Source of the DNA: Paracyclopina nana
Lineage: Eukaryota > Arthropoda > Copepoda > Cyclopoida > Cyclopettidae
Reading direction: 5' to 3'
DNA length: 64,000 nucleotides
NCBI GenBank assembly: GCA_019096065.1
Contig: JAGUCH010000002.1
Location: 3,112,501 to 3,176,500, forward strand
Shown: positions 2,420 to 44,866 of the stretch, piece by piece
Layout of the letters: each line of letters opens with the position of its first letter
How positions within the stretch are numbered: position 1 is the stretch's first letter
Notes under the pieces: generated by a model
Database searches by the model: none
What the model was told of the DNA's origin: nothing
Seen by the model: only the letters and a program-made list of their open reading frames with translations
Position numbers and translations under genes: made by a program

Positions 2420-4540
2420 ATGGACTTGCTAAGCACTCAACACAAGCTACTTTTTCTAATTGTGGGCCAACTTTTGTCTCCTATATTTTCTCAATTGAAC
2501 TTTTCGGCCAATTTTCTGCATAATTTTGCTAAGCAACATCGAAGGCTATCTATTGTTTTACATAACAAAAATAAAAATGTTTTCTTTTTAAAAGGGTAAA
2601 AAATGCTTTTTCAAGTTGCTATGATAAAAGAATATTTTTTTGATCATTTAGGCTATTTTCTGAATTACCAATAAATGTTGCCCAGAATGCATCGTTTAAA
2701 TCTGGATCAGATTTGCATTTGTTTATACCCAATAAAAGTGAAAATATCAGTAAGAGCATTGCTGACTTCAAGCTGATGTTCAAAGAGCAATCAAAAAATC
2801 AAGTTTGGCTCTTGGATGCATCCACGATCAAAAATCCGGAGGCGGATTTGCAAGATCTTCAAGTTGATTTGGACGATGATTTGTACTGGTTCAAAGGAAA
2901 TGCCTCACATGGGGAAATTTTCGAGGCGTACAAAGTCAACCAGTTTATGAAGCTTCAAGTGAACAAATATGGAACTTGGAGTCATTCTCAGCTAACGATT
3001 CCAAACGTTGAAAAGTGGTCGCGAAGAAAGAATCTTAAGGTAGCATAAAATCATTAGCTTAGAATGCGTAATTTTAAAGGGTCTCTAAAAAGGGAACTCA
3101 CTTGAGGGTATTGTCAGTGAAAAACAGCCCCTATACCACTGAAATGACTCCACTGAAAAATTCTTCGGATTCATGGAGCTTTAAGGGAATGTACCCGGAT
3201 ATTCTTGATGCGTTGCAGGTAAAATTCAAATTGACCGAAATAACATAAATCATCTTCTTTATGCAGCAAGAGCTCAACTTTACATTTTCCGTGAAGCAAC
3301 CCAAAGATCAAAAGTGGGGATCATTACAAAGTGACGGAAGTTTCAGCGGAATGATTGGACTTTTGGCATCTGGACAAGCAGATTTCGGTTAAAAAAGAAC
3401 TTGGCACTAACTTTACTATTCTATATTTTCTTTAAAAATAGCTTGCAGTGCTTTCACTGTTACTTTGGAGAGAAGTGAAGCGGTCAGCTTTACCACTGCA
3501 ATCAATATCATCCATCACAGGCTGTTTATTAAGAATCCGGAAGGAGCACTTAACCTGTCTGCTTTCTTTGCTCCGCTACAAACAACAACTTGGCTGGCAG
3601 TTATAGCATTCTGCCTTTTGATGCCTTTCATTATGTTCATTTCGTTCAGGTGAATCCCATAAAAGTAATGGCATTTCATATATTATTCATCTATAGCTGA
3701 AAAAATAGATTCAGCCCAGCTGACGACTTGGAAAAGCAGGAGTTCACGCTTACGCGAATGTTTGTGGCGACCTTAAGTTTTATAACTATGAAAGGTTGGA
3801 GCGATGAGCCCAGAGGAAATGCAGCCAAATTGACCTTTCTTGTGTAAAGCAGAAAAATAGACTTTTTATCGGAATATTGAATGCACTTTCTTTTCAGGGT
3901 GATTACAGCTAGCATGTTGCTATACTGGTTTTGGGAAGCCATGCTCGTCTCCTATTTGTCTATGAGAGTCATCATTTTGCCATTTCGATCGCTTGACGAA
4001 TTATTGGCGAAATCTAATTATTATGTGGGAATCAATGTGGGCAGCCAAATTGAGGATACGTTCAAGCTGTCTCGCAATCCGGTTTTTCAGCGGATCTGGA
4101 CCGAGCGAATTGTGCCCAAATACGAGGTGAATTCGCAATACAGCCATCCCATGATCATGCTGACTGAAAACCCAACTATGGCTTATTATGGCAACTTTTA
4201 CTCCTCGAGGACTCACGAGTTGTACAAGTCCTGCGAAATTGTCACCATTCCTGCTAAATACCAATACGAAGCTCTGGCTATGGCCATGCAGAAAAATTCC
4301 CCCTTTTCGGATCTGATCAACTATCAGCTTTCGATTTTTCTGGAAAATGGGGTGCTTAATCAAATAAGGAAAAAGTACGAGCCTCAGCCCCAAGTCTGCC
4401 CTGATTACAGTGGACAGCCTTTGGGCTTTGGCAGCGTTTTAGCCGCATTTATCCCTCTCATTGTCAGTACATTTATATCCCTATGTCTCTTTGTCATTGA
4501 ATGCATTTCAGGCAAATTTATGCGAGCTTACTTTCAATAA
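2420..4540 (+). CDS. Ionotropic receptor (IR), divergent chemosensory type
   Basis: Seven exons: 2420-2595, 2652-3039, 3093-3218, 3267-3387, 3442-3649, 3709-3843, 3898-4540, giving 598 aa with all phases consistent. The start was chosen because it opens a signal-peptide-like stretch (KLLFLIVGQLL). Next come an N-terminal region, ligand-binding lobe S1 (GMYPDILDAL and TLERSEAVSF), a first membrane helix (TTWLAVIAFCLLMPFIMF), a short pore segment (ITMKGW), a second helix (LLYWFWEAMLVSYLS), lobe S2, and a last helix near the C-terminus (FIPLIVSTFISLCLFV). This is the iGluR/IR architecture without the conserved SYTANLAAF motif of true glutamate receptors. IRs are ligand-gated cation channels of chemosensory neurons in protostomes; ligand and subfamily are unknown. 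AATAAA overlaps the stop. Confidence 0.88.
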
Positions 4541-4541
4541 A
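4536..4541 (+). promoter_or_regulatory. Polyadenylation signal overlapping the IR stop codon
   Basis: The sequence AATAAA contains the TAA stop (4538-4540), so the 3' UTR must be very short. The convergent gene stops only 70 bp away. Confidence 0.55.
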
Positions 4542-4609
4542 TGTACTATCTGCTAGAGCAGAATTTTAGAGAACAGAAGATATATAGTTTAATATGGCTT
4601 ATTTATACA

Positions 4610-7200
4610 CTAGAATTGGATTTTGACAATCGGCAGCAGCAGCAGCAAGAGTGCGATTATTGTGCAATAATTGGCTGATTGAGGCAAAGCCGAGTTCATC
4701 ATTTCCATCTCGGCCACAGGATTATTATTAGCATCATCATCATTTTCGCTCGTTTTTCCGCCATCATTGGATATGGGCGAAGGAAACTCGATTTCTCGCC
4801 CTGGCTTCTGACTTTTTAAAGCTTGCCCCGAGGAAGAACACTTCAATTGGCCTTTATGCACTTGCAGGGCCGAGCTGGCGAAATTGTGGAACGACTGCCC
4901 ATTCGTTTCGCATTTCCGAAGGCCACAGTTCAGGCATTGGCCAGCGGTGTCGTAGAGCTTTTGCAGGAAATCCAGGCTGCCCCTGCCATTGGCAATGATA
5001 TCCCTGTCAAAGTTGTGAGTCATTGCGCCCAACAGCCAAGACATTCGATCACATTCGCAGACAAAGTGGTTGTTCTCCACCACCAAATACGCACTGGGCG
5101 AGGAGCTCATTTTGTCGAAAGAGGGCATTGCTAGCGCATTGAAAGGCAACGTGGGCTCGTTGGCAAACATATTCTCACGAAAGATGAACCCTGCTTGAAC
5201 TTGGCTCGTAGCATCCTGAAATTAGGTTGTGAGCATATTTTACTGTTTCCAGATGTAAATCCTTGACAAAAAATAATAGTAAGATCTAATACGCAAAATA
5301 CTATGCTAGAGAATTTATATTCAATATAAATGAAGTAAATATTTTTTTTCTACAGTTTATGCAATATGACAAATTAGGTAAATGTATGTACGTGCAAAAT
5401 ATTGAAATTACATCCAATTAATTTTTAATTTTCATTCACCTACATAATTACGGCCGAAATTATGGCATAATTTAATACTGAACATAGATCACTGCAGGGT
5501 ATTTTGGGTGAATTAACCTTGATTGTTCAATTTCAAAGAAAAAATGTCAAAAAGGCGTGTCATCCCCCAACAAATTGGCAAATATCATCGTCATTTTGCC
5601 AAAGTTAGGCTATAATTTGGTAGGTGATCCGAGCCTTAGCCTAGCTTGTTTGGATCACAATTTTTTATAAGTAGCATTATTAGAAGATAATCTTACCAGT
5701 TCAACGAGAGGCCTGAGATCAACGAAGGGTTTCCCAGTGAGCTTTTCAAATGTGTTGCCTTGAATGTCAGCCAGGCCGAAGGTGACCCCCATGGATGCGT
5801 CTTGAAGGTTGTCAAATGTGTTGTAGGCCAGCATGAATTTGTCACACTTCATGTGGAAAGCCTGGCTTGCCAGGCTGAAAAATCGAGACTCTCCCAGCAC
5901 ATTGAACTCCCTGCAATCATCCAGCTTGAATCCCCACATGGAGACTCGATCGAATCGGCTGCGAAATATGCTGAATTCGCGAATGGAGTCGAAGGCGAAC
6001 GCCAACGACGGAGCCCGTTCCACCGTGACGGACTTGAGCAGAAAAGTGCCCTGGATTCGCACGCCCTCAAAGGTGTGCCTTTTCACCTGCAAATCTGGAA
6101 TCTGCAATGAAAAATTACGTACATCATTCAGTATAGAAAATGAAAGCTAGATTCAAAAGCGTACATTTTCCAGCTCAAAGTTGCTCAGTGTGGCGAATTG
6201 GCCGTTGCCAACGCGAGCTTCATACAGCCTGGAGTGGAGTATGACGGTCTGCACATCCCTAATTGTGACGTTCTGCAGGGATGCGATGGAGTTGAGTGTT
6301 TTGGGCAGAATCTCCACCTGCTGGCACCCAGTGAAGTTTAACTGGACGCTACTGAGGGGCACAACTTGGTGCCCACTGCCGTCTGCAGGGCCCAAATTGA
6401 TAACCTGAAAAATGAAACATTTGTAACAAGTCAGCATTCTTTTCTTGGCTGCCTCCTTTTTTGGCCTACACTATAAAGAGAGACTCTGAATAAATCGAAC
6501 ATTTGCATGTCCTCTTGGCAGCAGAAATGTAGTTCTATAGATGCACATTTGTGCTATATAGTATAAAAGGCCAGGGAAAAATATTGTTTTTCTCGTTATG
6601 CATGAGAAATTAGTGTGTGTGTGCTATGTGTAGAAGTCAGCAACAAAGTGATTTTTTCCCTTCTCAAGTGTCATTCGATGAAAATTGATGGTCAAACAGA
6701 TGACAGAGCGGCTAAAAATGAACAAACTGCAGTAATAGCTTCTCACTTTACAGAAGGCAATTTAGCAGAAAGTAAAGAGTACCGCACATCGTAGTGGCAA
6801 CCCAAATTGTGGCCCATTTAGAAATTCCATTTCAGTCCACAAACAGACTCATCAAAGACTTTTCCTCACTTAATTTATTCGTAGCTTGACCTGCTAGCTT
6901 AAATATGCGCTAGAAATTTCGGGGGAAATTGCCTGAGGCCTTCATTTTAAGATTCCCAAACACTTTTGATTATTTTGAAGCGCTGATCTCAAACTCTCGC
7001 ATTATGATTACAGGGCTTTAAAATTAATGAATTCTCACCTGTCCTGGCTGACACTGACAAGTCACATCGACGAGATCTTCTCTGAAAGGGCTGGGGTTGC
7101 ATGAGCAGCCAGCAACATTGCACAAATCTTCCACCTCACTTTTGGCAACATTTGCCAAAGCTGCCAAAATCAGCACTTTCTTGCATAAGGCAGCAGCCAT
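4610..7200 (-). CDS. Secreted, probably GPI-anchored repeat protein (LRR or beta-helix like)
   Basis: Four exons, in transcript order 7200-7039, 6404-6165, 6101-5697, 5215-4610; 470 aa. The start opens a clear signal peptide (KVLILAALANVA). A Cys-rich N-terminal cap follows (CNVAGCSC ... CQCQPG), then about 230 residues of loosely repeated hydrophobic segments (for example LSNFELENVNI and FNVLGESRFFSLAS) of the sort seen in degenerate leucine-rich or right-handed beta-helix repeats. Then comes a Cys cluster (FVCECDRMSWLL, CLNCGLRKC) resembling an LRR C-terminal cap, an acidic spacer, and a terminal hydrophobic tail (IIALLLLLLPIV) with no cytoplasmic part, which suggests a GPI signal. I do not recognise a named family. 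It could be a surface adhesion or matrix protein; that is inference. Confidence 0.75.
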
Positions 7201-7532
7201 TTTTCGAGTCTATTAAAAAGCTGCTTGTCCAGACTAGATCAGCTCGAGAAAAAATTCAACAAACAATGCACATCTTCTTCGCATTTTCTCTCTCTTTCAG
7301 CTGCTCTGCAAAAGAAGAATTGTTACAGGTGTTAAATGACCAAGTTTGACAGTTCATTGCTGATGCACGCGCGTGACTGAAGCTCGAAACCTTAACTATT
7401 AGGCTCGTGAATACGACACCTACTTGAGTATATACTTGAATTTGAGGAAACTTTAAGGCGAAACGCGGTAATTTTTCTGACTTTGCTGCGCCAAGCTGTT
7501 TTCTCGACTAGGCTTGCACTGCTTGAGTGCCT
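7201..7532. other. Upstream region of the repeat-protein gene, no gene seen
   Basis: About 330 bp between the start codon at 7200 and the left target duplication of the foldback element. It probably holds the promoter; no clear TATA box or other site stands out. Confidence 0.5.
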
Positions 7533-7984
7533 ATTATAAGCGGGTGCCATCTTTAAGCTAGACACATTTTGTACAGTCGGAATAAGTTAGACACCTTTTG
7601 GCATAGTCATTTTTGGTTAGACACATTTTTCATGACTGTCATGTTTTAGCATAGACACCTTTTGGCATAGTTGGATTTTGTTAGAAAGTCAAGATGTTTT
7701 AATTTAGACACACTAGCATAGTACTTTTAGGTTAGACAAATCTGAATAACTGGTATGCTTTAAGTTAGACACCTTTTGGCATAGCACTTTTAAAGTAGAC
7801 ACCATTTTTGTGACAGGAACATTTTAGGTTAGACAACTTTTGGTACAGTACTTTTAGTTTAGACACATCAAGACCTTTTAGGTTAGACACCTTTTGGTAC
7901 AGTACTTTTAGCTTAGACACACCAAGACGTTTTAGGTTAGACACACCAAGATGTTTTAGGTTAGACACCTTTTGATACAGTACT

Positions 7985-8522
7985 CACATTGACTTGGCAA
8001 AGGACCTAACCCAAACTACTTGCAACACCCAAAAATTATATATTTTCTGAAAGCTTATGTCCCAAGGGTTCATTTGGTGATAAAATAAAAATCCTGGCCT
8101 TTAGCTTCAATGACCCCCACTAAAATTCAAAAATAAAACTTAAGTTACTTCATAGTAAAATGGCTAGGATGAACAGAAACGGAGATATAGCTATGCTAAA
8201 AGTTGATTACTGCCACCTTGATTAATTTTGCTTAATAAGTTTGGCAACAAATATCTCATTTTGGGTGCATTTTACAGACTTGCTTATGAAATAAGAAAAG
8301 TTAGATCTCCTTTTTTATGAGGGGGTCACTGCTATTAATAATCTCATAAAATAATAAACTGTAGGTGCTAGACGTTTTTGAAAATTTTATGTTATGGGAA
8401 GCCATAGGCCAGGATTTTTAAATTGCTACCAAATGACCCCTAAGAACATATGCTTTCAGAAAATGTATATTTTTTGGGTGTTGTTAAGAGTTAGGGTTAG
8501 GACCTTCTTCAAGTCAATGTGC
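7985..8522. mobile_element. Palindromic MITE nested in the foldback left arm
   Basis: Starts CACATTGACTTG and ends with its complement (CAAGTCAATGTGC). About 125 bp at each end are inverted copies (7985-8110 against 8395-8522, sharing for example the block CCAGGATTTTTA and complement). It splits a satellite unit whose uninterrupted form reads GTACTTTTAGC, giving a 3-bp duplication ACT (7982-7984 and 8523-8525). A 3-bp duplication suggests a PIF/Harbinger (Tourist-like) element; no transposase is present. Confidence 0.7.
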
Positions 8523-8901
8523 ACTTTTAGCTTAGACACACCAAGACGTTTTAGGTTAGACACCTTTTGGCATAGCACTATTAGATAAGACATGTCAAGA
8601 CACACCCCACTTGAAAAGTCCCTGATAATTCTTTTATGAAAATCATAATGATGCATTAATTAATCATAATTCGAAGTAATGTAAAAGAGCAATACTAGTT
8701 TTATGCAAAATGCCAACAATTTGTCTACTTTCTTGAATAAGCTCTTGTCACTCTGACGAATTACTGACGAACCAAATTTTGAAAATTTGAAAACAATGAA
8801 ACCCTAAAACTGCAAAGCCTGAAGCTAAAACCCAGCTTGAACCAAATTATGAAAAACTTGAAAAAGCTTGAAACCCAAAAAATGCAAAGCTTGATAACCC
8901 A

Positions 8902-9370
8902 GTGTCTAACCTAAAACGTCTTGGTGTGTCTAAGCTAAAAGTACTATACCAAAAGGTGTCTAACCTAAAACATCTTGGTGTGTCTAGGCTAAAAGTACTG
9001 TACCAAAAGGTGTCTAACCTAAAACGTCTTGGTGTGTCTAAGCTAAAAGTACTGTACCAAAAGGTGTCTAACCTAAAACGTCTTGGTGTGTCTAAGCTAA
9101 AAGTACTGTACCAAAAGGTGTCTAACCTAAAACATACTAGTCACTAATTTGTGTCTACTCAAAAAGTACTGTGCCAAAAGGTGTCTATCATAAAGTATAC
9201 TAGTCCTTGAAATATGTCTACGCTAAAAGTGCTATGCCAAAAGGGGTCTAAATAAAAATATCTTGACTTTCTAACAAAATCCAACTATGCCAAAAGGTGT
9301 CTACACTAAAGCATAGACGTTGTCTAACCTAAAGTAACTTGGCGTGTCTAACTTAAAACGACTTGACTTT
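8902..9370 (+). repeat. 54-bp tandem repeat array (right arm of the foldback)
   Basis: At least four near-identical 54-bp units run from about 8902 to 9130, each with GTGTCTAACCTAAAACGTCT followed by GTGTCTAAGCTAAAAGTACT and ACCAAAAG; degenerate units continue to about 9370. The unit is itself two similar half-units. The complementary array forms the left arm (about 7560-7980 and 8523-8590). Confidence 0.9.
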
Positions 9371-9399
9371 CTAACATAAAAAGTTCACCCATTATAAGC

Positions 9400-11948
9400 G
9401 TATGGAATGAACTATTGCCAATTTCATGAATCAGCCGTGCATGTGAAACAGCTTTTTTCACATTGCCTATCTTGTTAAAAACAGGAAATAGTTGGCGTAC
9501 ACTACATCACATAATTCCTCATGACTTCACTTTTCAATAATGATCAGTACAATGAATTTCAACAATACATAAGACTTATTTTTGGTTTTTGAGTTTTTCC
9601 TAATAAAATAGGAAACTTAGAAGCCTAAAAGATAAAATCAGAGAAATTGATTGTCATGTTTTGCAAAAGTTCAATCCTTTTCGAAGATCAAGGCCAATAA
9701 TTCATGACAGCGAGGTAGGACAGGAGAAAGCTTAAAAAAGGAAAGATAGCGCATTTTTGCTGCTTGCGTGAAAATTGCAATAGCTTTCGCGCTTGCTCTT
9801 TCGTCGTGCTTAGGCTTTCACAACCGTTTTACGCGGTCCACGCTTACAACTACAGCTCCTATAGTATAATAGCAGCAGTGACATTACAACTTCGAACTTT
9901 CAGTCAATTTTGTTTATTATTTTCACGAGGCCTCGAATAATTCCCAGCAGAGCTAATTAAAGCTTACTTTGCCTAATGGAGCACGAGAAGTGGGCGTGGC
10001 CTCCCTCGTATATAATCATTAAATTCAGTTACGACTGCAATTTTTGGCGCAAAAATTGCCGTCTTAAAAAAAAAACGCTGTATACTTTTACGCCTCTTAA
10101 ATCAGGCAAATCCGCTATTTTTGCATATCTTTCATATTTTTGGACAAGTCAAGGGCGCTAACCACCCCTTTTGGCAAAGAACCACCACCCCATAATAAAT
10201 AAATAGAGCCTTGCTGCACACTATACTACCATAAGTAACTTTGACAAATGCTCTTGTGGTAAGAAGGCAAATAGACACACCCAGTTTTTTGCTTGTTCAT
10301 CCTCATGCCATTATCACATGGACATTTTTAAGCCAACTTCTACGATCCTTCGATCGTGAGCTGGTATAGAATTATCCACTTTGGGCTTGAATTATGCATG
10401 CCATGGCACAATGCCATTTCCCCACAAAAGTGCCACTTTTTTCATGACTTTTCCCTATGAAGAATAATTGATTTTTTATGCCACTACAATAAAATAGCTA
10501 TAATTTCAATGGTCTAATTGCAAATGCATATTTTCCAAATTATACAGAAAAGTGTTAGGTTTTTGCATAAAACAATAATATAATTCCAATCGCTACTATG
10601 ACTTATAGCAAAGGAAACCAACTTTGCGCTAAAGTCACGAAATGTTTCCAACTGCGTTTCACTGAAAAATTGGTCTCCCATCGTCGTTATTATTCAGAAT
10701 TTCACTGGGAATCGTGGGTGTCTTATTTTCCCATTGTTCTACATTTTTCGACATTTGGCACATGTGCGGAAAATAAAATCTTACCCAGAATTGAGTCATT
10801 GTAGAGGGAATTCTTTGCTGTGGTCGTTTTTCACATCCTTGATTAAATTGGGCTGCACGCTGGGAGGAAACCAGTGCGAAAAATCCCAAGTTGGGATTTT
10901 AATGTGGGAAATGTTATGGCGTGGCTCAGTGGAGGCGAAGCATTGAACTGAGCTGAGCCAGCCCTTGAAAAATACCTTGGACGGCGCTCAATTCCTCGCG
11001 ATCTCAGATTTGTTTTCCACTTATAGCAAAGCTACGAATGATTGAAGTAGCACCGTCGCTGAGTCATCGCCGAAATTCAATATTACACAAATCTCCCCTT
11101 TGTCATGCGAAATAATATGGTTCAATTATGACACAGACAGACATAACGCCCACTTTTTTTATAAAGAACAAATAAATTGAATTTCATGCTGAATTTACAA
11201 TGCAAATATGGCCAAAATGGATGTAGTTTTTGAATGCCAAGTTGGGCAATGTTTCTCATCTCTTGACCGCTAATAGCTTCTTACCAAGAAGAGATGAGCT
11301 TCACTTGCTTTATCATCAGTGGCCCAACCCTAATTTGTCCCATTTGCAAGCTATAGGCAAGGTCGTCATGCATTTGCAACCACAGTGGGAGGAGGAAACA
11401 AGGCCTAAAATTGGCAAAAATTCCAGAAATTCCTCTCAGAGCTTTGGAGATTTCAAAGCAACGTTCATGACGATCTGAGTGAATGAGTAATTGCATTATA
11501 AAAAATGAGCTGCATTCACGAATCTTGAGTCACGTGGAATTAGCAAGAGTTTAGTATCAATCACAAAGCTTGAACATGACATCGATCTTTTAGAGGAATT
11601 TTGATGCTGCTTTTAACAGCTCTGTGGGAGTGCAAGAATGTAGCAGGCAATTTATAGTATTCTAATAGCGCGGTTCTAATTTTGCTGTGTGCTGCAAGTA
11701 TTTTAATGATATTTCAGAATTATTTCCTTCCTTGGAAATTCAGTGTTGCATAGCTAAACTAATTCTCAGCCTGAAGATCAATGTCCTGACACTTCACCTG
11801 AAAGTCATCAATATCTGACCACTCAACACATTAATGCTCAAAAATCACCTTGAGCAACGCGACTACAAAATGGAAAAGGTTTTGTGTACTAAGCCTCGCA
11901 GTTGCTTGGATACTAAACTAGTACTCTGTAAAATGTGCCATTTTCACA
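9400..11948. other. Intergenic region, no gene recognised
   Basis: AT-rich unique-looking DNA with many stops in all frames. Only short unconvincing reading frames occur. I see no splice-compatible exons, tandem repeats or terminal inverted repeats. Confidence 0.55.
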
Positions 11949-14756: not shown

Positions 14757-17700
14757 TGTTAAGCTTGCTGCTGATGCGAGAAACTGAGCTCAAAATAGGA
14801 CGAGAATCTGATGACAACATCTGGAGTTGGATATTTCTAGAAACTCACATAGTACTTCAAAGCTGACAGAAGACGAAAAAGGGGAGAATTGCCTTGTGTC
14901 ACAAAATCTTTGGTGCTTCATTATACAGTGATTTCAAATAAGCATGATTCAGCTTTTTCTCAATTGCTGGTACGTTGCAATTCCCAAGAAAGCCATTATC
15001 CAAAGAGGAAGAAGATGGACCCAATTTCCTTAATTTATTATTGACCAAACACATGTGACACACACACAAAGGCTTAGTACAATACACGCGTGTAAGAATC
15101 TGTCATATCCAAATACAATACCTGCAAGAAGTAGAGGCTTTCTTTGGTCTATTAATGTTCTTTTTGTTCGTACTCGTACATTGTCATTCTGTCAGCAAGA
15201 AAGCTAGCTGGGATTGACATCTTGGAAAAATACCCAACCAGAAATTTTTCCAAGTTTTCTGAAAGTTATTGTAACGTGTCAGCACTCCTTCGTTTTACCC
15301 AGGTTGAGTTTATGTCGTTATGTAACATTAACTTCCATACCACCTATGTAAAAAAATTGAGAAAAATCGAATGTGTCACAGAAAATTTGTTTTTTTGATT
15401 TTACCTAGGTGTCAAGGCAATTAATGTTACATAATGACTTGAACTCTATGTTGATAAAACGTACAAGTTTCACTGAGGGTTTTTTTGCCGTATGAGGGCT
15501 CAGAATTTCTGGTTGGGTAAGAATACTCGCTCGGAAAATCCCTTCTAATATCTTTTTTTGAACATGAAAAAGTAGGCATCTCAACAAGTTGAGCCTGAAA
15601 GTGAGCACATTGTTTTCATGGGAAAGCCTGATTGAATTTTAATTTTAATGAACAACATATTGTATATTATGCGATAAGCTCTTTTTGGCTGAAATTAATT
15701 AAAGCGTGAGCATCGACTGTTTTGCTTCAGAATCCTTGCCTAACAGTTCCATTTTACACTCTTAGAATTTCAGTATGGTGTATTCACAAGTTTTTGGCGA
15801 GGAATCTGCAATAGAGCAGTTTGGAGGTCACGCAGTTTACCTCCTTCATCATAGCATGGAAGTGCTTAGATGCCACTTAAGCAAACAATTTGAGGGGCTC
15901 ATTCCCAAGGGAGCTAAGAAGAAAGCAGAGCTATTATGGACACATCTTCCTCTAGAGCCACTACATAACACAATCTGGTTTTCAAGAGATAGTTCCAGCC
16001 GACTAAGAAGAGAGTCAATGTATGCAGGCTTCTTCTTCTTCTTCTAGGAGTGGAAGCTTGCTAGTATACTACGAAGCGAAAATAGAGAGAAAGGGCAGTA
16101 GTGTGTATACCATGTGACACTACTTCTACTTCAACTGAGTACATTCAATTCCAGGCTACCAAGGCATAAATCAGTGGCGCAGCGTATGGCTCTCTTTTAA
16201 TTGCTAAAGTAGAGAAATGATATGAAAGTATATCATGGCATAGTAGAGTGTCTTTTTGGGCTTCTTTTTCATTTTCTCCTTTGGTGAACTTGATTAAAGA
16301 GGCTTTCTTCATCACCACACGAGCTCTTTTACTTTGTTTCTTCTCCTTCTTACTCTACTGTATGTAGTCGCTATATTTTTGCGGCAGCTATATATTTCTC
16401 ATCAAATGGAAAAGAGCTAGTGGTGGTCTTTGGCGATCCACTCAATCACGAACTCATATATAATACCTCTGATTCGAGAGCTCTGGCCAATACTTTGAAG
16501 TGGTGAAAGAGACCAAAGATTCCTTCTTTTGGACACTTCAAGGCCATGTCTTTGGATGAAAAAATTCCAGGCCTTCAAAGGATGACAAGGCGTATCAAGT
16601 TGAAATGAAATTCAAAAATAGCTTCCTAGCAAAATTTCAATTTTGGCCAAGAGCTTAGAACCAAGAACGTTTGAAATAAGGAAAATTGTGTACAGGTTAT
16701 CATTTGTGGCTCTTTTCTAGGCTGAATTCGTTCCGGCCTGGGCTCGATTTCTGCCCCAACCATTTTGCTCTCTTTCCTCGAGAGACCAAGTGATTGCCGC
16801 ATTATATCCCAGTTTGCTGCTGCAACTGCTTTCCCTTCTCTTCTTGATCTGGTTTCTCACAAGAGAGAAAGTATGGTGAAAGCAGAGCGCGCGAGAGAGA
16901 GAGTCAAGAGAAGATGATGATGGTGAAAACAACACTCGGCTTTCAAAATAATAATAACCCACTGTATTTAGAATTAAGTCAGCATGCTCAATCTTAAGTG
17001 CTTTACCCCCATATCATCGGCATATCTTGGCTGAAAAAAGCCCCATTACTGCTACTCAGAAGTGTTGTGAAAAAGGAAGAGAAACAATGTGTTGTTTTCC
17101 CACCAAGAAAATCAAATAGTTGTGAATTGAGAAGTTGTGCTGGAAGAGACATCAATGGAAAAAAGGCTTTCGAAAAAATCATCATGCTAATATAAAGGCT
17201 TTCAAGTCTAGCAACAATCAATGGAAAAATTCAATGGAACCATATCTAATAACGCAATGCTCACCCTCAGCAAATGATGTGCAATATATATCCTAACAAG
17301 AGTAACTACTACATCAATGGAATCATAGCAATGGACTCTTTTGGCTTTCAAAAAGTGATTTAAAGAAGAAGAGTGCTTATATATATCATCTAATACAACA
17401 ACATATTACAATTACCTTGAGTATCATCTACAATGTTCAAATCCACCGCAATTATCCACCTACTCATACTGAGTGTACTCGTGAGAAATGTCAAGCCTGG
17501 AATACTGTCCCCTTCAGACAACAAGCAGTACAAAGAAAGAACCATTGGGTGAGATTATTCTTTCTTACCTTTCTTATCGATGCTTTGTACTATCTTCACT
17601 CTTCTCCTCAACGCGACGTGCGATTTAAACCAATAAAATTATCCTTATTAGTTTTTTGACTGAGATTTGAGATGAACTTGTTTGGCTATCTGAGCAACTA

Positions 17701-17948: not shown

Positions 17949-18438
17949 TAGTGATGGAACGAGCCGGAAATTTTCAGCTTGATCAAGCTTCAAGCTTTTA
18001 GAAATGTGTTCGAGCGATCCCAAGCTTTTGAAAATTATTATCAAGCTTTTTCAAGCTCGAAATTTCACATTTCAAGCTTTTTTCAAGCTTTTCCCCTTTG
18101 TAGTTTTTTGTAATCAAACATTGCGATTAGTCGCCAGACTTGGCAAAATTACCCAAAAAGAGCAAATAAAGACAGAAATAGCTTTAACTTTGATTAAGTA
18201 CTTCATTCCCTCGAGTATGTGCTAATTTTAAAATTTGCCCTTTTTTGTTTTGATAAAAAATGGATAAAGTTTTGAAATTTTTTGGTGTCAAGCTTTTTCA
18301 AGCTTTGCATTTTTGGGTTCAAGCTTTTTCAAGCTTTTCCAAATTTGGTTCGAGCGATCCCAAGCTTTTTGCTTATGTAGCTCAAGCTGGGTTTTAGCTT
18401 CAAGCTTTCAAGCCAAGCTGAAACTCGTTCCATCACTA
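17949..18438. mobile_element. hAT-type non-autonomous element
   Basis: 490 bp. Perfect 15-bp terminal inverted repeats TAGTGATGGAACGAG, and a perfect 8-bp target duplication GGCAAAAT at 17941-17948 and 18439-18446. Eight-bp duplications and YARNG-type ends are hAT hallmarks. The interior is full of short AAGCTTGAA/TTCAAGCTT words on both strands. No transposase frame. It ends about 75 bp before the first clear Knickkopf-like exon. Confidence 0.88.
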
Positions 18439-18512: not shown

Positions 18513-21500
18513 CTTCTCCAGCTTCAATGCACCTCCAGGGGCTGATCCAGATGCCACGTACAAGTATGTGGAGGTCATCGAAGTGCCAACAGATGAATTT
18601 GAGCAACAGGAAGACGACGACGAGGGCGATTTGTCAGCTGTCAATGATGCAAATTGGCCACCTCCAATCCCCATTAATGGCCCCAATTCCGACCTGAACA
18701 TGAAAGGGCTACTCAATACAATCCCAAACAAGTGGTTGGATGAGAAGAAATCGGCTTACACAAAGGATTTTGGCACCTTTGTGGGCAGACTGATGCCACT
18801 GGCCCATGGAATATCTGGTCTGGTAATGCACACTAATTATTACTACTCCTCATACCAACAACCTATATACAAGCTCTGAACAACTTTCCATGGAAAGGAT
18901 TACTGAAAGCTTATTAGCAAGAAGATTTTTCTTTCAACCTTCTTCTTTGGCATCCCAGAAAAGTTGAACTTTCTTCTCTTTCTCAGGGCTTTTTCAGGGC
19001 CATTCCTTTGAAAGCTCTTAAGTTCAGGAAATGCCCCATTTTTCACTGGAATATTAATTTTTTTTCTCCCCTGATAGATTTACGAGCTGAGTGAGAGGAT
19101 CAAAAGTCCCTCACAAAGTTTTCAACTTTATTTCTCTTGCAGGTGTATGTGGTGGACGAGCAGAATTTATTCATCAGAAACTTTTGGTATGATGGCACTG
19201 GACCAGATGCTTACTTTTGGGTCGGGAACACACCAAGGCCAACACCTAAAGGTTGGGTTGTGCCTTATCCACCCATTGACTTGTACACTGACATGCAGCC
19301 TGCCAAGACAGGTGAATAGTCTAATTTAATAATAATCAAATAATAGGCTAATTTTTAAGCATTGGTTTATTTTCAATTCTTTTACTAGATATTAATGGGA
19401 TGGAAGTGCCATCGTTGAAGAAGATGAAGAACAAAAATGTCCTACTCACTTTGCCAGGGTCACTCAAAGTTCGTGATATCAATTGGTTGTCCATCTGGTG
19501 TAAAAGGTTCACTGTGAACTATGGCGAAGTGTATCTCCCAAAGGAGCTGGAAATCCCCGAAAAAATTGTAAAATCATTCTTATTACTTGTCCATGTCAGT
19601 AGACTAACTTTTGATATTCAAGGCTCTGAGCTCGTTTTCTTCGATGGCCAGAGACAAGCTAAATTCTGGCCCAATCACGATTTTGGACTCGACTTCATTC
19701 TACATACGAAATCTGCATTTGAATGTGGGAGACCAGAATGGCTTTCACTTTTGGGTGGGCAATTCCACCACAATGGCTCCAAACTCTGATGGGATCATGG
19801 TCAGCATAATTATTGTAATTCTCAAAACATCCTTCTATTAATTTTTTTCAAATCAGGTTGCTAACGAGAAGGCTCGATTTGATGATTTGAAGTTGTACGG
19901 TGGAAACGATATCATCATCACTTTGCCGAAGGGAACGACGATGTTCGACATCAATTATTTGTCTGTTTTTAACAGCGACACCGGGGAAAATTTGGGCCAC
20001 ATCCAATTCGACATCCGGAACAATAAAATTCCCCCTGCATTGGGACAAACAAAGAAGCCTGGATGGTGGTTCGAAATCCCCACCACAAGGTTGCAAATTC
20101 AATTTTAACTAAATGATATGATATCTTACTTATTAGAGTAATTTACGATTACAGCCCACCGCCCATTTTAACTCCACCAACGAGGTGAGCTTTATTTAGC
20201 GCAAGGTTTCGTGTTGTACTCACGCAACCTCTCTTCACTTTTTTAGCAGTAGAGGCGAGGAAAAGTCTGACTATGTGGGATTCAATCATACCCTCAAGTT
20301 GCCCAACTGCAGGGAGCTTTTGGGCCGCAAAATTCGCCTTCTTTGGACCCAGGACGACACGGAGATCTACTTTCGCATCCAAGTGCATATGGAGTTGAGC
20401 CAATATGCTGCTGTTGGCGTGGCCAGCGTTGGCAGTCCCATGATTGATGCTGACTTTGTCCGGATCTTCTTCAACCAAACCTCCAACCAATTCACGACCG
20501 AGGATGCTTTCCTTTCGAAGCAGTTGAATTGTGATTTCATCACTGGTGGACTTTGCAGTGACGAACAAGTACTAAAATATTTTTTAATACTTTTGAGCGG
20601 AGCGGCCGAGCTGCCATTTTAGTGGCGAAACCGAGTGAAGCGTATTTCTATTAGCCTTTTATTTTTTAACCAAAAACTGATCCAATATCCCGTTCATCTG
20701 CCCCCAAATTCCTTACGATAATGCACGCCGAACGCCTTACGGAAAGTAGAAAAATTGTCTTATGACAAACACAAAAGTAAACTTCTGCTGATGCTAATAC
20801 TTTGAAAAAAAACGGGTCAATTTTAAGACTATTGAAAAGTAAACAATCAAAATTACATTTAAATTTCATTGCCAAACTGGTTACTTCTGAATCCATATTC
20901 ATCACACAAATTCATATGAACCAACTCAAAAATTGCAGAGTTATTACGTATAAGATACAGCAGAAATAATCAAAGTTTTTTCTGAATTTTGCCCTAAATT
21001 TGTTTACTCAATTCCTGGTTCAACTAGTTGAGAAGCCCTTCTTAAGTGGTTTGATAGCAAAACTCCTTTGCCTTATGACAATTTTTTACTTTCCGAAAAG
21101 CAACTTTGCACATGAACGGGATACAACTCTGAAAAGGGTTGAGGCATTGCCCTGTTGAAAAAGTGAGAGTTCACATCTCACGGGCAATTTTTAGGCGTTT
21201 TTGAAAATTATTTTTACTCTGGCTCCCGATCTGGTCGACTTTGTTTTATCAAATTAATTTTGACCTCCCAAATGCTCCACAGTGCACATAAACAAACTGA
21301 TTTAATACCATTGCTCCGCTCAACTAATCCGAGTCGGCAAAGCGCCGCTCCCCGTCTCGGACATCTAACTAGTTAATTTCACAAATTCTAATATTGATTT
21401 TTGCAGCATAATTACAAGGATCACGTGACCTTTATGGGAGCCACTAAAAATCACGGCCTTGCCATCATTGACTTCAAAAGATCCATCATGCCTCATGATA

Positions 21501-30479: not shown

Positions 30480-30515
30480 TTAGATCCACGATGTACGTAC
30501 GCTGCTAACATAGTA

Positions 30516-31189
30516 CCCAACCAGAAATCCTGAGCCCTCATACAAAAAAAAAAAACCCTCAGTGAAACATATACGTTTTATCAACATTGAGTTTAAGTCA
30601 TTAGCTTGTTCTCATAAAACTCAGTAAGGCAGGCGGTAAGCAAAGCAAGGCACTTTGGAAGCTTATAACTCAGTAAGTATTGAGCCGATTGGAACCGAAT
30701 TTGGAGGGATTCATAAGAGCATATTGAAGAATCTTCATGCAAAATTTCATCAGGATCGGAGAACTCTAAGGAGGTGGCTGATTTTTCTCCTTTGCTTAAC
30801 TGATTTGCCTCACTTTCAGTAAGGCGGCCTTAGCGTCCTCCGATCCGGATGAAAATTGGCATGAAGATTCTTGAATACGTCCTTATGAATTCCTCCAAAT
30901 TTGGTTCCAGTCGGACGAGTAGATGCTGAGATATAAGCGCGCAAAGTGCCTTGCTTACCTTATAGAAATGTTTATGAGAACAAGCTATTATGTAACATTA
31001 ACTGCCTTCACACCTAGGTAAAATCAAAAGCACCAATTTTTCGTATCACCTCCAATTTTTTCGATTTTTTTTACATAGGTGGTATGGAAGTTAATGTTAC
31101 ATTACGACATAAACTCAACCTGGGTAAAACGAAGGAGTGCTAACACGTTACAATAACTTTCAGAAAACTTGGGAACATTTCTGGTTGGG
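30516..31189. mobile_element. Mariner-like MITE, family CCCAACCAG, copy 2 (carries an insertion)
   Basis: Ends CCCAACCAG and complement; left flank TA, right flank TG (presumably mutated). Inverted relative to copy 1. Removing the insert at 30603-30986 leaves about 290 bp, matching copies 1 and 3. Confidence 0.78.
30603..30986. mobile_element. Hairpin MITE nested inside the mariner-like copy
   Basis: Ends GCTTGTTCTCATAAA and complement; ATT (or ATTA) is duplicated at the junctions, and the empty site in copies 1 and 3 reads GTCATTATGTAAC. Two arms of about 110-150 bp are inverted copies of each other (about 30635-30790 against 30820-30965; both carry AAATTTGGAGG-like and GGCACTTTG blocks). 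A 3-4-bp duplication suggests PIF/Harbinger. Non-autonomous. Confidence 0.75.
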
Positions 31190-33030
31190 TGCTTACGAAA
31201 GTACGGCCATATTTCAATGCTCTTTTTTGCAGGATTTTAGTGCTGCAAATTTCTCTACGAGATGCGTTATCAACACATTTCATCAAAAAAATATTTCTCC
31301 CATTTTATCCACTTGCACTCTATAAATTGTTTAAATTAACTAGATACCTTAGAACATATGTTGGTATTATTCCTCACTTATAGCAATAAAAATGATAAGT
31401 TGCTAGAGAATTTCGTATAATGCGCCTCATAGGCATACTGAATACAGTTGCTCTTTTATGGGGGAAGCCTAGGGTTATGAAAACTCTATTTTTGGCATCA
31501 ATAGCATTTGCCAAAAGAGCAGTTTAAAAAGGTTGCTATGAAGCCAGGAATTCGACTAGGTATTATAGAGCTCCTCCCGTTGCCAGAGAGAGGCTTCTCG
31601 ATCTCCCCATGGAAAATCCGAGCAAAAAGGCCTCTTTTATAAGGAGTACAGTTAAGTCTACAGAGTACCAAACCTTGAAACTGCGAATTGGATATATCGT
31701 GGTACCTTCGAAATATCATGTTTTATGGCTTATTTTCCTTGTGCCACGATACAATCCTTGGAAAAAGGAATGATGGAAAAGACAGAATTGTTGAAGGCTG
31801 TTGAAGATCTTCTTTCCATTTCCAACAAACCAACCGGACAAAAAGTTATTCATTGTCAAAAAGAGGCACTCGCACTCCCCTCTTGATTTAGTCAGTTGAC
31901 ATAAAAATAAAAGAAGTAGATAATAATAGAAGAACTAGATAACACATAAATTGGATTGATATTAATTTGGCAATAATCATTGGTTTTCAATTATTTTAAT
32001 TAATTGAGCAAACAATTTCCAAAAATTTCATGTGTAAGCCATAGTTCTTGAAATAAAACTAAAAGAAAATCGTAAGTAAATTACAAATGTATCCAAAGTC
32101 TACTAGAAATACATTCTTTTCGATGAGGAGGCAATTTCGCCAAAATACAGCAGTGTATTTTGGATGGTAACAGGAAAAGCTACCATCATTTCTTTGGTGG
32201 ATCCGAATCCCGCAGCGCAATTTCCGTCAACAATACCGGAGGTTTTTATGTGCTGGTACTTTTTTAGAAGAAGAAAGTCTCGACAAACATTTGCCTTACA
32301 TTGCCAAAAAATTACCATAAAACAGTCATGACTACAGTTACATTTCTTTAACCTATAGCAGGTTTCGTGAGCAGTAATGACACTATCCGATATAAGTAAA
32401 TGTAAAAATACAGAATCCTTCAAAGCCATAAAGAAAGGTCGCAGTTTTACATTGTTTTTCTTCTGATGGGCCTTCTCATACACAAATGAGAAAGATAGCG
32501 GCTAATCAAAAAGACTTGAGCTATTTGAGCTAATTCATTGCATATATTGATCTTTTAAAGAACATTGCTGAGCTCTGCATTATTGCTAGAATAAATGAAT
32601 AATTGATGAAATGGCCCTAGGTCATGACTCAACTCAGCCTTGAAAAGTTTCTCTCCCTTCAACAAATGTCAATTTTGAATATTTACGTTAAAACGAATTT
32701 GTTTAATATTTGGTACATAGGATATTTTTACAAACTCAATCCGATTTTGAATTCAGAAATTTATTCCAATGAAGCAATGGTGGCCTTTGATACTTGAAAG
32801 AGGCGCCGCTACGTCACGGCTTACACCCAATACTATACCTGTAAGCCGGATAATTACACTTCAGTACATACAGTAGAAAGTTCACACTCAACAGCTTGCC
32901 TCTGAGTCAGACATTTTCTGGACCTTTAGTAGTGTTTTTAGGTAAGAGCAAGTCCCCTATTGCGATCCTAATAATTATCTTACAATTCTTGGCAGATTAT
33001 TACCAAGAAGTAAAAGCCCAAATTGTAACA
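31190..33030. other. Intergenic region with one candidate ORF
   Basis: About 1.8 kb. Apart from the minus-strand frame at 32103-32483 I see no exon. The last 150 bp are probably the 5' region of the zinc-finger gene. Confidence 0.45.
32103..32483 (-). CDS. Hypothetical Cys-containing secreted protein
   Basis: An uninterrupted frame of about 126 codons. An internal ATG (about 32431) opens a signal-peptide-like segment (VFLHLLISDSVITA) followed by six Cys (ETC, CNCSHDC, CKANVC, NCAAG). The composition is more protein-like than the other stray frames of the window, but there is no recognised family, no obvious splice partner and no polyadenylation signal nearby. It may be a small gene, a decayed exon or chance. 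Confidence 0.28.
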   Translation of the reverse strand: MYEKAHQKKNNVKLRPFFMALKDSVFLHLLISDSVITAHETCYRLKKCNCSHDCFMVIFWQCKANVCRDFLLLKKYQHIKTSGIVDGNCAAGFGSTKEMMVAFPVTIQNTLLYFGEIASSSKRMYF

Positions 33031-34416
33031 ATGACCACTGAGGAAATCCCGGATGAATCCAACGTTGTGGTGCAGACAGTTGCCTGCAGTAAATGTGACA
33101 GACCATTTGCCTTGGAAAGAATACAAACTCACGAGAATATTTGCACACACATCAAGCAGAAAAGAAAGCCTTATGATATTGTGAATATGAGGATAAAAGG
33201 CACCGAATCGGAAAAGCTCGTGAAAGAAGGTCAGCTCTTTGTTGCTGTACGTACCACAACTCGTTTCACCAATAAAGTGCTTGCTTCCAGGCAAACTCAA
33301 ATTAGATCCGGCAAAGCCACTAGAGAGGAAATCAGTGCTAAATCAGAAACTTGGCCAACCCCAAAAAGAGCCGTTACCGCCAATAAAAACGGGACCAAAG
33401 CCGCCCGAGCCAACTAGAAAAGAGACCAAAAACGGAGAAGCCTTTCAAATAGTTTTAGATGATTATTCAGATGAACTGAAGACTGTGAAATACTCCAAAT
33501 TCGCGAGCCTTGTCAAAAAGCACCCAAAACTGGCCACAGAAAAGGTGAATTCAAGGTAAGTTTTTAAGTACGAAAATGAAATCATCTGCTCAGCAGCTAC
33601 CCATAAATTTTCCCAAGTTTTCTTAAAGTAATTGTAACGTGTTAGCACTCATTCGTTTTACCCAGGTTGAGTTTATGTCGTTATGTAACATAACTTCAGT
33701 ACCACCTATGCAAATAATTTGAAAAAAATCGAAGGTGACACGGAAAATAGGTGTTTTCGATTTTACCAAGGTGTCAAGGCAGTTAATGTTACATAATGAC
33801 TTAAACTCAATGTTGATAAAACATACAAGTTTCACTGAGAGTTTTTTTGGCGTATGAGGGCTCAGAATTTCTGGTTGGACTTATCCCACTTAATTACTCG
33901 CACCTACACATTAGACATTACAGTCAGCTAACCATGAAAGTACCTAAAAGACATTTCAGAGCACTTTGTTGTTTTTCGGGTTGCCCTAGCTTCCAATTTG
34001 AACATGTTGCTGAATATTTTTGGCTGTATGAACCAGTTGATTCTGGAGCCCAATTTCAATCGACCATAAACTGCCAAAGTATGCACAGCTTGCTTGACAA
34101 ATAAAATAAGTAAACATTGAAAAAATGCTTTTTTTGTAGGTACTTGTCAGCTGAGAGAGCGCGTAGTCGATGGATTTCTGCGGCCCAAAACATAAGCCCG
34201 GGCATCAGCGCTTTGAACGACGATGAAGTAGACTTCCTTGCAGCTTCGATGTCCTCGCAAAAGACAATTTGCTCCGATGCTTTTGACTTCTTGTTCGACT
34301 CACAAAACCTCAATCCGGACACGCTGAAGCAGAAGCTCGAGGAAGACATGATTGAAACCGAGCGGGAGCAAAAGCTGAGGGCTGCTGACCAAAGCGTGTG
34401 CTGCGTTATTTCTTAA
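33031..34416 (+). CDS. ZC2HC1-like C2HC zinc-finger protein ending in a CAAX box
   Basis: Three exons: 33031-33229, 33291-33555, 34140-34416; 246 aa. One zf-C2HC finger near the N-terminus (CSKCDRPFALERIQTHENIC) followed by QKRKPYDIVNMRIKGTE, which matches the segment after the finger in ZC2HC1A proteins. The vertebrate proteins carry two such fingers; here only one is seen. The middle is Pro/Lys-rich and the C-terminal part is helical and acidic. The protein ends SVCCVIS, a C-terminal CAAX motif (CVIS) suited to farnesylation, with an adjacent Cys. Upstream in-frame sequence without a better Met supports the chosen start. The second intron contains a MITE (33600-33878). Molecular role unknown. 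Confidence 0.8.
33600..33878. mobile_element. Mariner-like MITE, family CCCAACCAG, copy 3 (intronic)
   Basis: About 279 bp, same orientation as copy 1; the left end has decayed (CCCATAAATTTT) and the right end keeps CTGGTTGG. TA precedes the left end. It lies in the second intron of the zinc-finger gene and accounts for about half of that intron. Confidence 0.75.
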
Positions 34417-43641: not shown

Positions 43642-44383
43642 GTCAATGATCTTGCTGGTTTGCTGCTTAGGAGGTGGACTCCAAGCCTGTGTATTGAGCA
43701 CATGGAATACGCACTGAAAAAATTAAAGTTTAAACCTACTAGTGACAAATTGGATGAGTTAATGATTGCGGGCGGCATTCTCGAATTGGACTGATTTCTC
43801 CTTCTAATTTTAGTGAACATCTTTCTCTCTCTGCTCAAAAGGAAAGACTGGGATTTACTCCGTTGTAGCATTGTTGCTCTCCAGCTCTTTCACCTATACC
43901 ATGCATGTAGCAGTATTAGAACCAGGCATGAAATTTTAAAAAGCTTACAGGCACAAAATGTAGTGCTAATTGCAATTGCGTGAGAGTATCACAATACTAT
44001 GGTAAATGTAAGCTTCTACTACATCACATCAAGTTGATGTCCGTCTAAATTTGATTGATGATTGGAGGCTGGTTCATTTTCTGTATTTTTTTCTCAGCTA
44101 AAACATCACGTTTCCATGCTTTGAAGCTACTTCGTGGCAGCGGTCCAATTGCCACCATGATACCAAGAAAATGTATTTTTGTGTGCCACATAAGGCAAAG
44201 CGTAAATTCGAGTGAAAACCTATAATGACACAATCTCAAAAAGCCTCTTCTCACCTCCACTAATTCGATAGACTATTATAACAACCGGCAGTACACTTAG
44301 AGTTGGAAAATTCTGGTTATGCATTAAATAACCTTTTTACCTAATTTTGCTCCCCAAAAAGTACACAAATTACCACCTTTATG
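43642..44383. other. Upstream region of the ENaC-like gene
   Basis: About 740 bp. A minus-strand frame at 44045-44260 has no supporting feature. No other gene seen. Confidence 0.45.
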
Positions 44384-44808
44384 TCCCGTTCATGTGCCCC
44401 AAAATTCCTTACTGTTATGCACACCGAACGCTTTACGGAAAGGAGAAAAATTGTCTTATGACAAACACAAAAGTAAACTTCTACTGATGCTAACACTTTG
44501 GAAAGAAACGGGTCAATTTTTAGACAATTGAGAAGTAAACACTCAAAAGTTTATTTCAATTTCTGGTTACTTCTGAATCAAATTGTTTCACTCAAATTCA
44601 TTTGAACCAGCTAAATAATTGCAGAGTTATTACAAATAAGATACAGCTGAAATAATCAAAACATTTCGGAATTTTGCCCTAAATTTGTTAACTCGATTCC
44701 TAGTTCAACTAGTTGAGAAGCCATTCTTAAGTGGTTTGATAGCTAAACTCTTTTGCCTTATAAGACAATTTTTAACTTTCCGGAAAGCAACTTTGCACAT
44801 GAACGGGA
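44384..44808. mobile_element. MITE, family TCCCGTTCAT, copy 2
   Basis: 425 bp; ends TCCCGTTCATGTGC and complement, right flank TA, left flank TG. It is colinear with copy 1 at 20688-21121 over its whole length (shared blocks such as AAAAATTGTCTTATGACAAA). It ends 58 bp before the stop of the neighbouring GPCR, so it may supply part of that 3' UTR or its terminator region. Confidence 0.78.
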
Positions 44809-44866
44809 TATTAGCGTTACAAAGTGCTTGTATGCTTTAAATCCTAACCCGCCAATTAAACTTGTC

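Follow-up and report, generated by a model that had tools for sequence, protein, structure and literature searches.

An array-armed foldback element of the copepod Paracyclopina nana, very probably a recently moved non-autonomous member of the Mutator superfamily

The 64,000-nucleotide stretch of Paracyclopina nana contig JAGUCH010000002.1 analyzed here (hereafter, the window) contains a segment built largely of tandem units in opposite orientations and enclosed by a short direct repeat, raising the question of whether it is a transposon or a local inversion of satellite DNA, and, if the former, which transposase moves it. The original prediction, made from the letters alone, named exact copies of ATTATAAGC at both edges, ends starting GGGTG, and arms of opposed tandem-unit arrays, and each of these points held: positions 7533-7541 are identical to 9391-9399, the 1849-bp element between them starts GGGTGCCATC and finishes AAGTTCACCC (termini GGGTG...CACCC), and the opposed arrays span 443 bp on the left and 489 bp on the right. 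The parts of the element are as follows.

7533-7541, unstranded: left target-site duplication ATTATAAGC, an exact match to 9391-9399
7542-9390, plus strand: non-autonomous foldback element, 1849 bp, delimited by the duplication and by genome matches of both ends
7542-7984, plus strand: left arm, 443 bp, tandem units, the inner part being regular 54-bp units
7822-7944, plus strand: 54-bp tandem units in the left arm, 2.3 copies (Tandem Repeats Finder)
7985-8901, unstranded: loop, 917 bp (repeat finder, junctions)
7985-8521, unstranded: passenger, a separate MITE-like repeat with inverted ends of about 124 bp (inverted pair)
8523-8601, plus strand: array fragment in left-arm orientation, resuming past the passenger (85% to the left arm; junctions)
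8602-8901, unstranded: rest of the loop, no transposase match by tblastn
8902-9390, minus strand: right arm, 489 bp, tandem units in opposite orientation to the left arm
8902-9133, minus strand: 54-bp units in the right arm, 4.3 copies (Tandem Repeats Finder)
9391-9399, unstranded: right target-site duplication ATTATAAGC, from the sequence

Two structural details required revision. The 54-bp arrays first taken to form the arms make up only the inner side of each, in opposite orientation according to both Tandem Repeats Finder and the repeat finder, while the outer parts consist of less regular units spaced 23-34 bp apart. Likewise, the loop of roughly 290 bp proposed at the outset corresponds to the gap between the inverted ends of the passenger (7985-8108 and 8398-8521), the real loop of the element being 917 bp. 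The passenger is itself dispersed in the genome, with 467 first-look candidates, and 31 of the 40 that were scored lie outside window-family copies by their coordinates. Part of the remaining loop (about 8770-8897) resembles a short tandem repeat of 31-bp period at window positions 18234-18411. Elsewhere in the window, six of seven reading frames tested had a Pfam hit at E 0.001 (lipase, serpin, C2, kinase, MgtE, and sulfotransferase, the last below its cut-off), and neither RNA families at Rfam gathering scores nor tRNAs were found within the 64 kb. Copies of a dispersed repeat, 87-90% alike and in both orientations, occupy 15232-15519, 30514-31193, and 33592-33878, and a 440-bp repeat is present twice (20685-21123 and 44381-44810, 86% alike).

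The prediction that other copies with the same ends, duplications, and variable repeat number would exist was borne out across the 92-Mb genome, where the left end had 37 matches (37 of 37 candidates scored) and the right end at least 43 (40 of 70 candidates scored). Here and below, match counts are lower bounds wherever candidates were only partly scored, and end matches outnumber copies since a few copies yield more than one. Both ends were located in 32 copies, which span 708-1936 bp (one is longer through nesting) and differ in their number of 54-bp units. This count leaves out L045, with a merely extrapolated right end and no duplication, L056, the single-ended or fragmentary L042, L043, and L046-L055, a truncated copy at L030 1001-1730, and second readings of L015, L034, and L037. 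The family thus combines long, internally repetitive inverted repeats around a loop, dispersed copies, and variable arm length, the traits of a foldback, and a 913-nt copy (L026) treated as a single strand gave a fold z of -28 (20 shuffles).

Exact target duplications flank 23 of the 32 copies, 14 of them of 8 bp and nine of 9 bp, while only 1 of 992 mispaired flanks reached 8 bp in a control; that single match may be the L036 left flank paired with the L034 right flank, both copies sharing flanking sequence. Among the nine copies without an exact duplication, four (L017, L031, L035, and L036) were one change off by eye. The duplications are 34% G+C, with no common consensus by eye. Target duplications in the Mutator superfamily are about 8-11 bp long, a range into which the exact 8- or 9-bp duplications of this family fall.

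Nested insertions also bear on movement. At L015, a whole copy (2483-4406) lies within another copy, flanked by the duplication AAGTCAAT; other copies, including the one in the window, have this site unchanged and without the insertion. Uninterrupted sites were also found, within 5 mismatches, for a nested copy at L030 (TGCCAAAAG), and the same tolerance yielded no empty site for a third nested copy, in L034. Three nestings against 33 intervals that amount to 0.05% of the genome would have a probability of ~9e-7 under uniform insertion, an excess that may reflect target preference or simply insertion-tolerant DNA. Compared with the window copy over the first 403 bp, and with gaps ignored, those in L014-L024 show 99.5-100% identity, and movement has therefore been recent. 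For the window copy itself, a joined-flank search of the 92-Mb genome for an empty site matched its own two flanks alone. Judged from sequence, the comparison of copies, the duplications, the two empty sites, and the asymmetric ends common to a transposase-bearing relative together demonstrate mobility.

That relative came from a search with the PF10551 (MULE) profile, which matched five places in the genome. One of them, L057, is an element of 5749 bp (3763-9511) with a 9-bp duplication GATATACCT and a frame of 519 aa in which MULE and RING domains were recognized, flanked by inverted tandem arrays of 63-bp and 52-54 bp units. A spliced model of the gene matched MULE at E 2e-12, above the Pfam cut-off, and RING at E 3e-9, and one extra exon added an N-terminal FLYWCH match (E 0.0018) at 18.8 bits against a Pfam cut-off of 23.6. 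The frame carries FDGTF, ADFE, and NNGCES at 182, 244, and 366, which we take to resemble the three catalytic residues of MULE transposases, with a putative catalytic role. At 6742-7059 and 8556-9215, L057 has in addition an RGG-rich frame on the minus strand and frames on the plus strand that weakly resemble GDSL lipase (E 0.067, below cut-off), the region of the latter being partly kept in L063.

In BLAST alignments, position 1 of both window arms falls exactly on the two L057 element ends. When the terminal 28 nt were compared in anchored fashion, window-family and L057 ends scored 12 left to left, a value that 2 of 5000 random sites of the window attained, and 16 right to right (0 of 5000), versus -1 and -1.5 for the crossed pairs, and the two asymmetric ends therefore correspond one to one. 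The bare unit consensuses are not clearly alike, as 53 of 500 shuffles scored equally high, so the homology of the two families rests on the anchored ends and on the spacing described below. Given that L057 combines a MULE-RING gene with similar arms, a 9-bp duplication, and both termini in register with homologous window-family ends, the window element is very probably a recently moved, non-autonomous Mutator-superfamily (Phantom-like) foldback, moved by a MULE transposase in trans. The predicted Mutator-type foldback is accordingly upheld at that strength, through the many same-end copies, 8-9 bp duplications, varying arrays, nested insertions, and the transposase-bearing relative.

L057 has relatives of its own. 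Its left arm had at least 77 matches (40 of 94 candidates scored), and exact 8-9 bp duplications were present at four of six loci comprising L057 and five further L057-type copies (L057, L062, L063, and L066), L064 and L065 being without one. L062 has arms of the L057 type and the first part of the transposase gene, from which its sequence passes straight to the right end; it therefore seems to derive from an L057-like element by internal deletion. Among the other MULE loci, arrayed ends and a duplication could be delimited at L058 and L059, making three of five with L057, and both have array ends of other sequence (8-bp duplication and 15-bp units in L058; 10-bp duplication and 24-26 bp units in L059), the left-hand array being recognized by eye in each. 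The L058 left end had 22 matches including itself (22 of 22 candidates scored), and that element is adjoined by an inverted repeat (L058:6328-8112) whose arms measure about 770 bp and are 92% alike. In L059, the MULE frame lies between short inverted arrays (4599-6748), with a RING match just below the Pfam cut-off; the end pair chosen was the second by end score, and its left-hand base is also the first one in 39 of 40 full-length matches. The left end of L059 had at least 41 matches including itself (40 of 63 candidates scored), and its left 170 bp occur at no fewer than 39 other places at 95-98% identity, from which this family appears to be large and rather young. L060 and L061 were rejected as delimited elements, with repeats near their MULE frames and no credible end pair with a duplication. 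Retroelement-like frames adjoin both places in the frame listings.

Array spacing and array letters behave differently in the two families. The left arm of the window element carries 15 TA-preceded GACA/GAAA cores, at element positions 17, 46, 76, 110, 140, and on, and the right arm 17 on the minus strand, at 17, 40, 64, 87, 117, 170, and on from the right end, the unit at 140 having a changed core that is not counted among these positions. In L057, cores lie at 17, 46, 75, 109, and 138 on the left and at 17, 40, 64, 87, 116, 139, and 168 on the right, such that left spacing is 29, 30, 34, 30 in the window family versus 29, 29, 34, 29 in L057, and right spacing is 23, 24, 23, 30, 23, 30 versus 23, 24, 23, 29, 23, 29. 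The first right-hand core is GAAA instead of GACA in the window copy and L057 alike. Right-hand spacing is exact in 25 of 34 family copies, as is left-hand spacing up to the fourth unit (also 25 of 34), the window copy included in both cases. The letters preceding GACA, by contrast, are TA in 29 of 30 cores of the window copy (CC in none) and CC in 17 of 19 cores of L057 (TA in none). When the outermost 250 nt at each end are counted, 380 of 417 GACA in 32 window-family copies follow TA and none follows CC, and in six L057-type copies 83 of 87 follow CC and none TA, although these are not independent events, the copies being related. Outside the arms, cores of either type seldom occur. Core spacing is therefore end-specific and nearly equal in the two families, and the letters before GACA differ.

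These observations support a mechanism in which a MULE transposase supplied in trans would work on the element ends, with a staggered cut at insertion leaving the 8-9 bp duplication. Each arm is an array of 23-34 bp units with a common GACA core, most likely serving as repeated, putative transposase contact sites; such binding is suggested by analogy with the foldback Galileo, whose internal repeats bind its transposase according to PMC4079207. The outer units hold a nearly fixed, end-specific spacing, the inner array varies by 54-bp steps (24 + 30 bp), and the loop would be cargo. The pattern of letters suggests that the arms are arrays of transposase sites that changed together. Whole-unit turnover would be expected to shift positions, and the letters would therefore be explained better by conversion of short tracts or by selection to fit the transposase. 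A more specific version, that the units are putative contact sites read as an array whose core differs between the sister families by two letters (TA or CC), at almost all units of either end, with spacing kept, the change tracking the DNA-binding domain of the transposase, strikes us as possible but rather unlikely.

The source of the transposase has two main readings. The search for an autonomous copy suggested at the outset led to a related family, L057, and not to the window family itself: tblastn with three transposase frames of the same genome gave nothing at E 0.05 in the fetched window-family copies, and a six-frame search of this one assembly found no MULE gene inside a window-family copy. 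Moreover, window-family arms were absent from all fetched MULE loci, and by coordinates the five MULE places and the 15 places matching the L057 protein are all farther than 50 kb from every listed window-family end. The window family may thus have its own transposase source that is missing from the assembly, being polymorphic, lost, or in unassembled DNA, a reading that we hold to be evenly poised. It would account for very young copies with no autonomous member among those MULE places and protein matches, and for core letters unlike those of L057; however, absence from a single assembly is weak evidence, and a six-frame search can miss intron-rich or diverged genes.

Somewhat more doubtful, though still a serious candidate, is a reading in which the transposase of L057, or one nearly identical to it, would move the window family in trans even though the core letters differ. 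Among the 15 matches of its protein, L057 alone has a full-length, stop-free frame, and its asymmetric ends and their spacing match those of the window family. Nonetheless, the core letters of the two elements do not overlap, and among the matches listed no other place bearing the L057 left arm exceeds 96% identity to it, whereas many window-family copies are near-identical; given these different identity levels, the bursts probably differ in time. The two readings predict opposite binding of TA and CC arrays.

Explanations outside the Mutator superfamily fare poorly. Galileo is a foldback of the P superfamily, which has a THAP-domain transposase, and its target duplication is 7 bp. A P-superfamily foldback like Galileo would share the foldback plan with internal repeats, which in Galileo are bound by the transposase (PMC4079207), but the 8-9 bp duplications in 23 of 32 copies and the MULE domain of the related transposase-bearing element make this very improbable. 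That there is no transposon here, only an inverted duplication of a local satellite array beside a chance 9-bp repeat, would suit arms that are tandem arrays folding on themselves but is scarcely credible, being refuted by the shared ends of dispersed copies, by their duplications, and by the empty sites. The related proposal that the element creates satellite DNA, and a satellite origin of the element, went unsupported: of the matches to the 54-bp units that were listed (150 of 169; 40 of 72 candidates scored), every one falls within a copy or a fragment next to one, and none forms an array beyond them, the intervals C8:351495-354205 and C3:204350-205803 having been drawn wide to take in adjoining fragments.

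The Mutator-superfamily foldback favored here belongs to a kind already known from Tm1 and Tetris, which the window family joins; the family itself was not met in the literature searched, a comparison made outside repeat libraries. Tm1, a Mutator/Foldback element of root-knot nematodes, is described as having, like the window family, composite tandem-repeat arms of variable number and asymmetric terminal motifs, with duplications mostly of 9 bp (range 8-10 bp, 45 of 53); every isolate tested had a single element with a transposase, in which FLYWCH and MULE domains are combined, alongside many short relatives (PMC3169594). Membership in Tm1 was rejected, as the 23-34 bp units and GGGTG ends do not match its terminal motifs and its 13-15 bp units of other sequence (PMC3169594). 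As far as the same account goes, Tm1 is inactive and no RING domain is described for it, whereas many window-family copies are near-identical and L057 has a RING; moreover, unlike in Tm1, the transposase-bearing element found here is a sister family with other core letters (PMC3169594). The Phantom group of Mutator is reported to combine a FLYWCH and MULE transposase with, in some members, foldback-like ends (PMC3169594), from which L057 may differ by its C-terminal RING, a domain below the Pfam cut-off in L059.

Tetris of Drosophila virilis is presented as a non-autonomous foldback which, like the window family, has tandem-repeat arms and 8-10 bp duplications, and it is assigned to Mutator; however, its units are ~220 bp and also occur in kb-size satellite-like arrays, of which none was seen for the window family, and no transposase-bearing relative is reported there (PMC4079207). 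FB4 of Drosophila melanogaster, likened here by description only, is a foldback whose inverted ends are long and whose duplications measure 9-10 bp, and it is considered Mutator-like; its transposase is termed unknown (PMC8277862), while the window family has a transposase-bearing relative in the same genome.

Some array-armed foldbacks (Tetris, and FB4 per PMC8277862) thus have no known transposase. Since one genome contains both young non-autonomous foldbacks and a relative that has matching ends and carries a transposase gene, the role of the arrays becomes directly testable in P. nana, and the TA/CC difference with conserved spacing offers a specific, testable idea of why the arms are arrays. 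If that idea is true, coordinated change at some 20-30 sites would leave sister foldback families deaf to each other's transposase.
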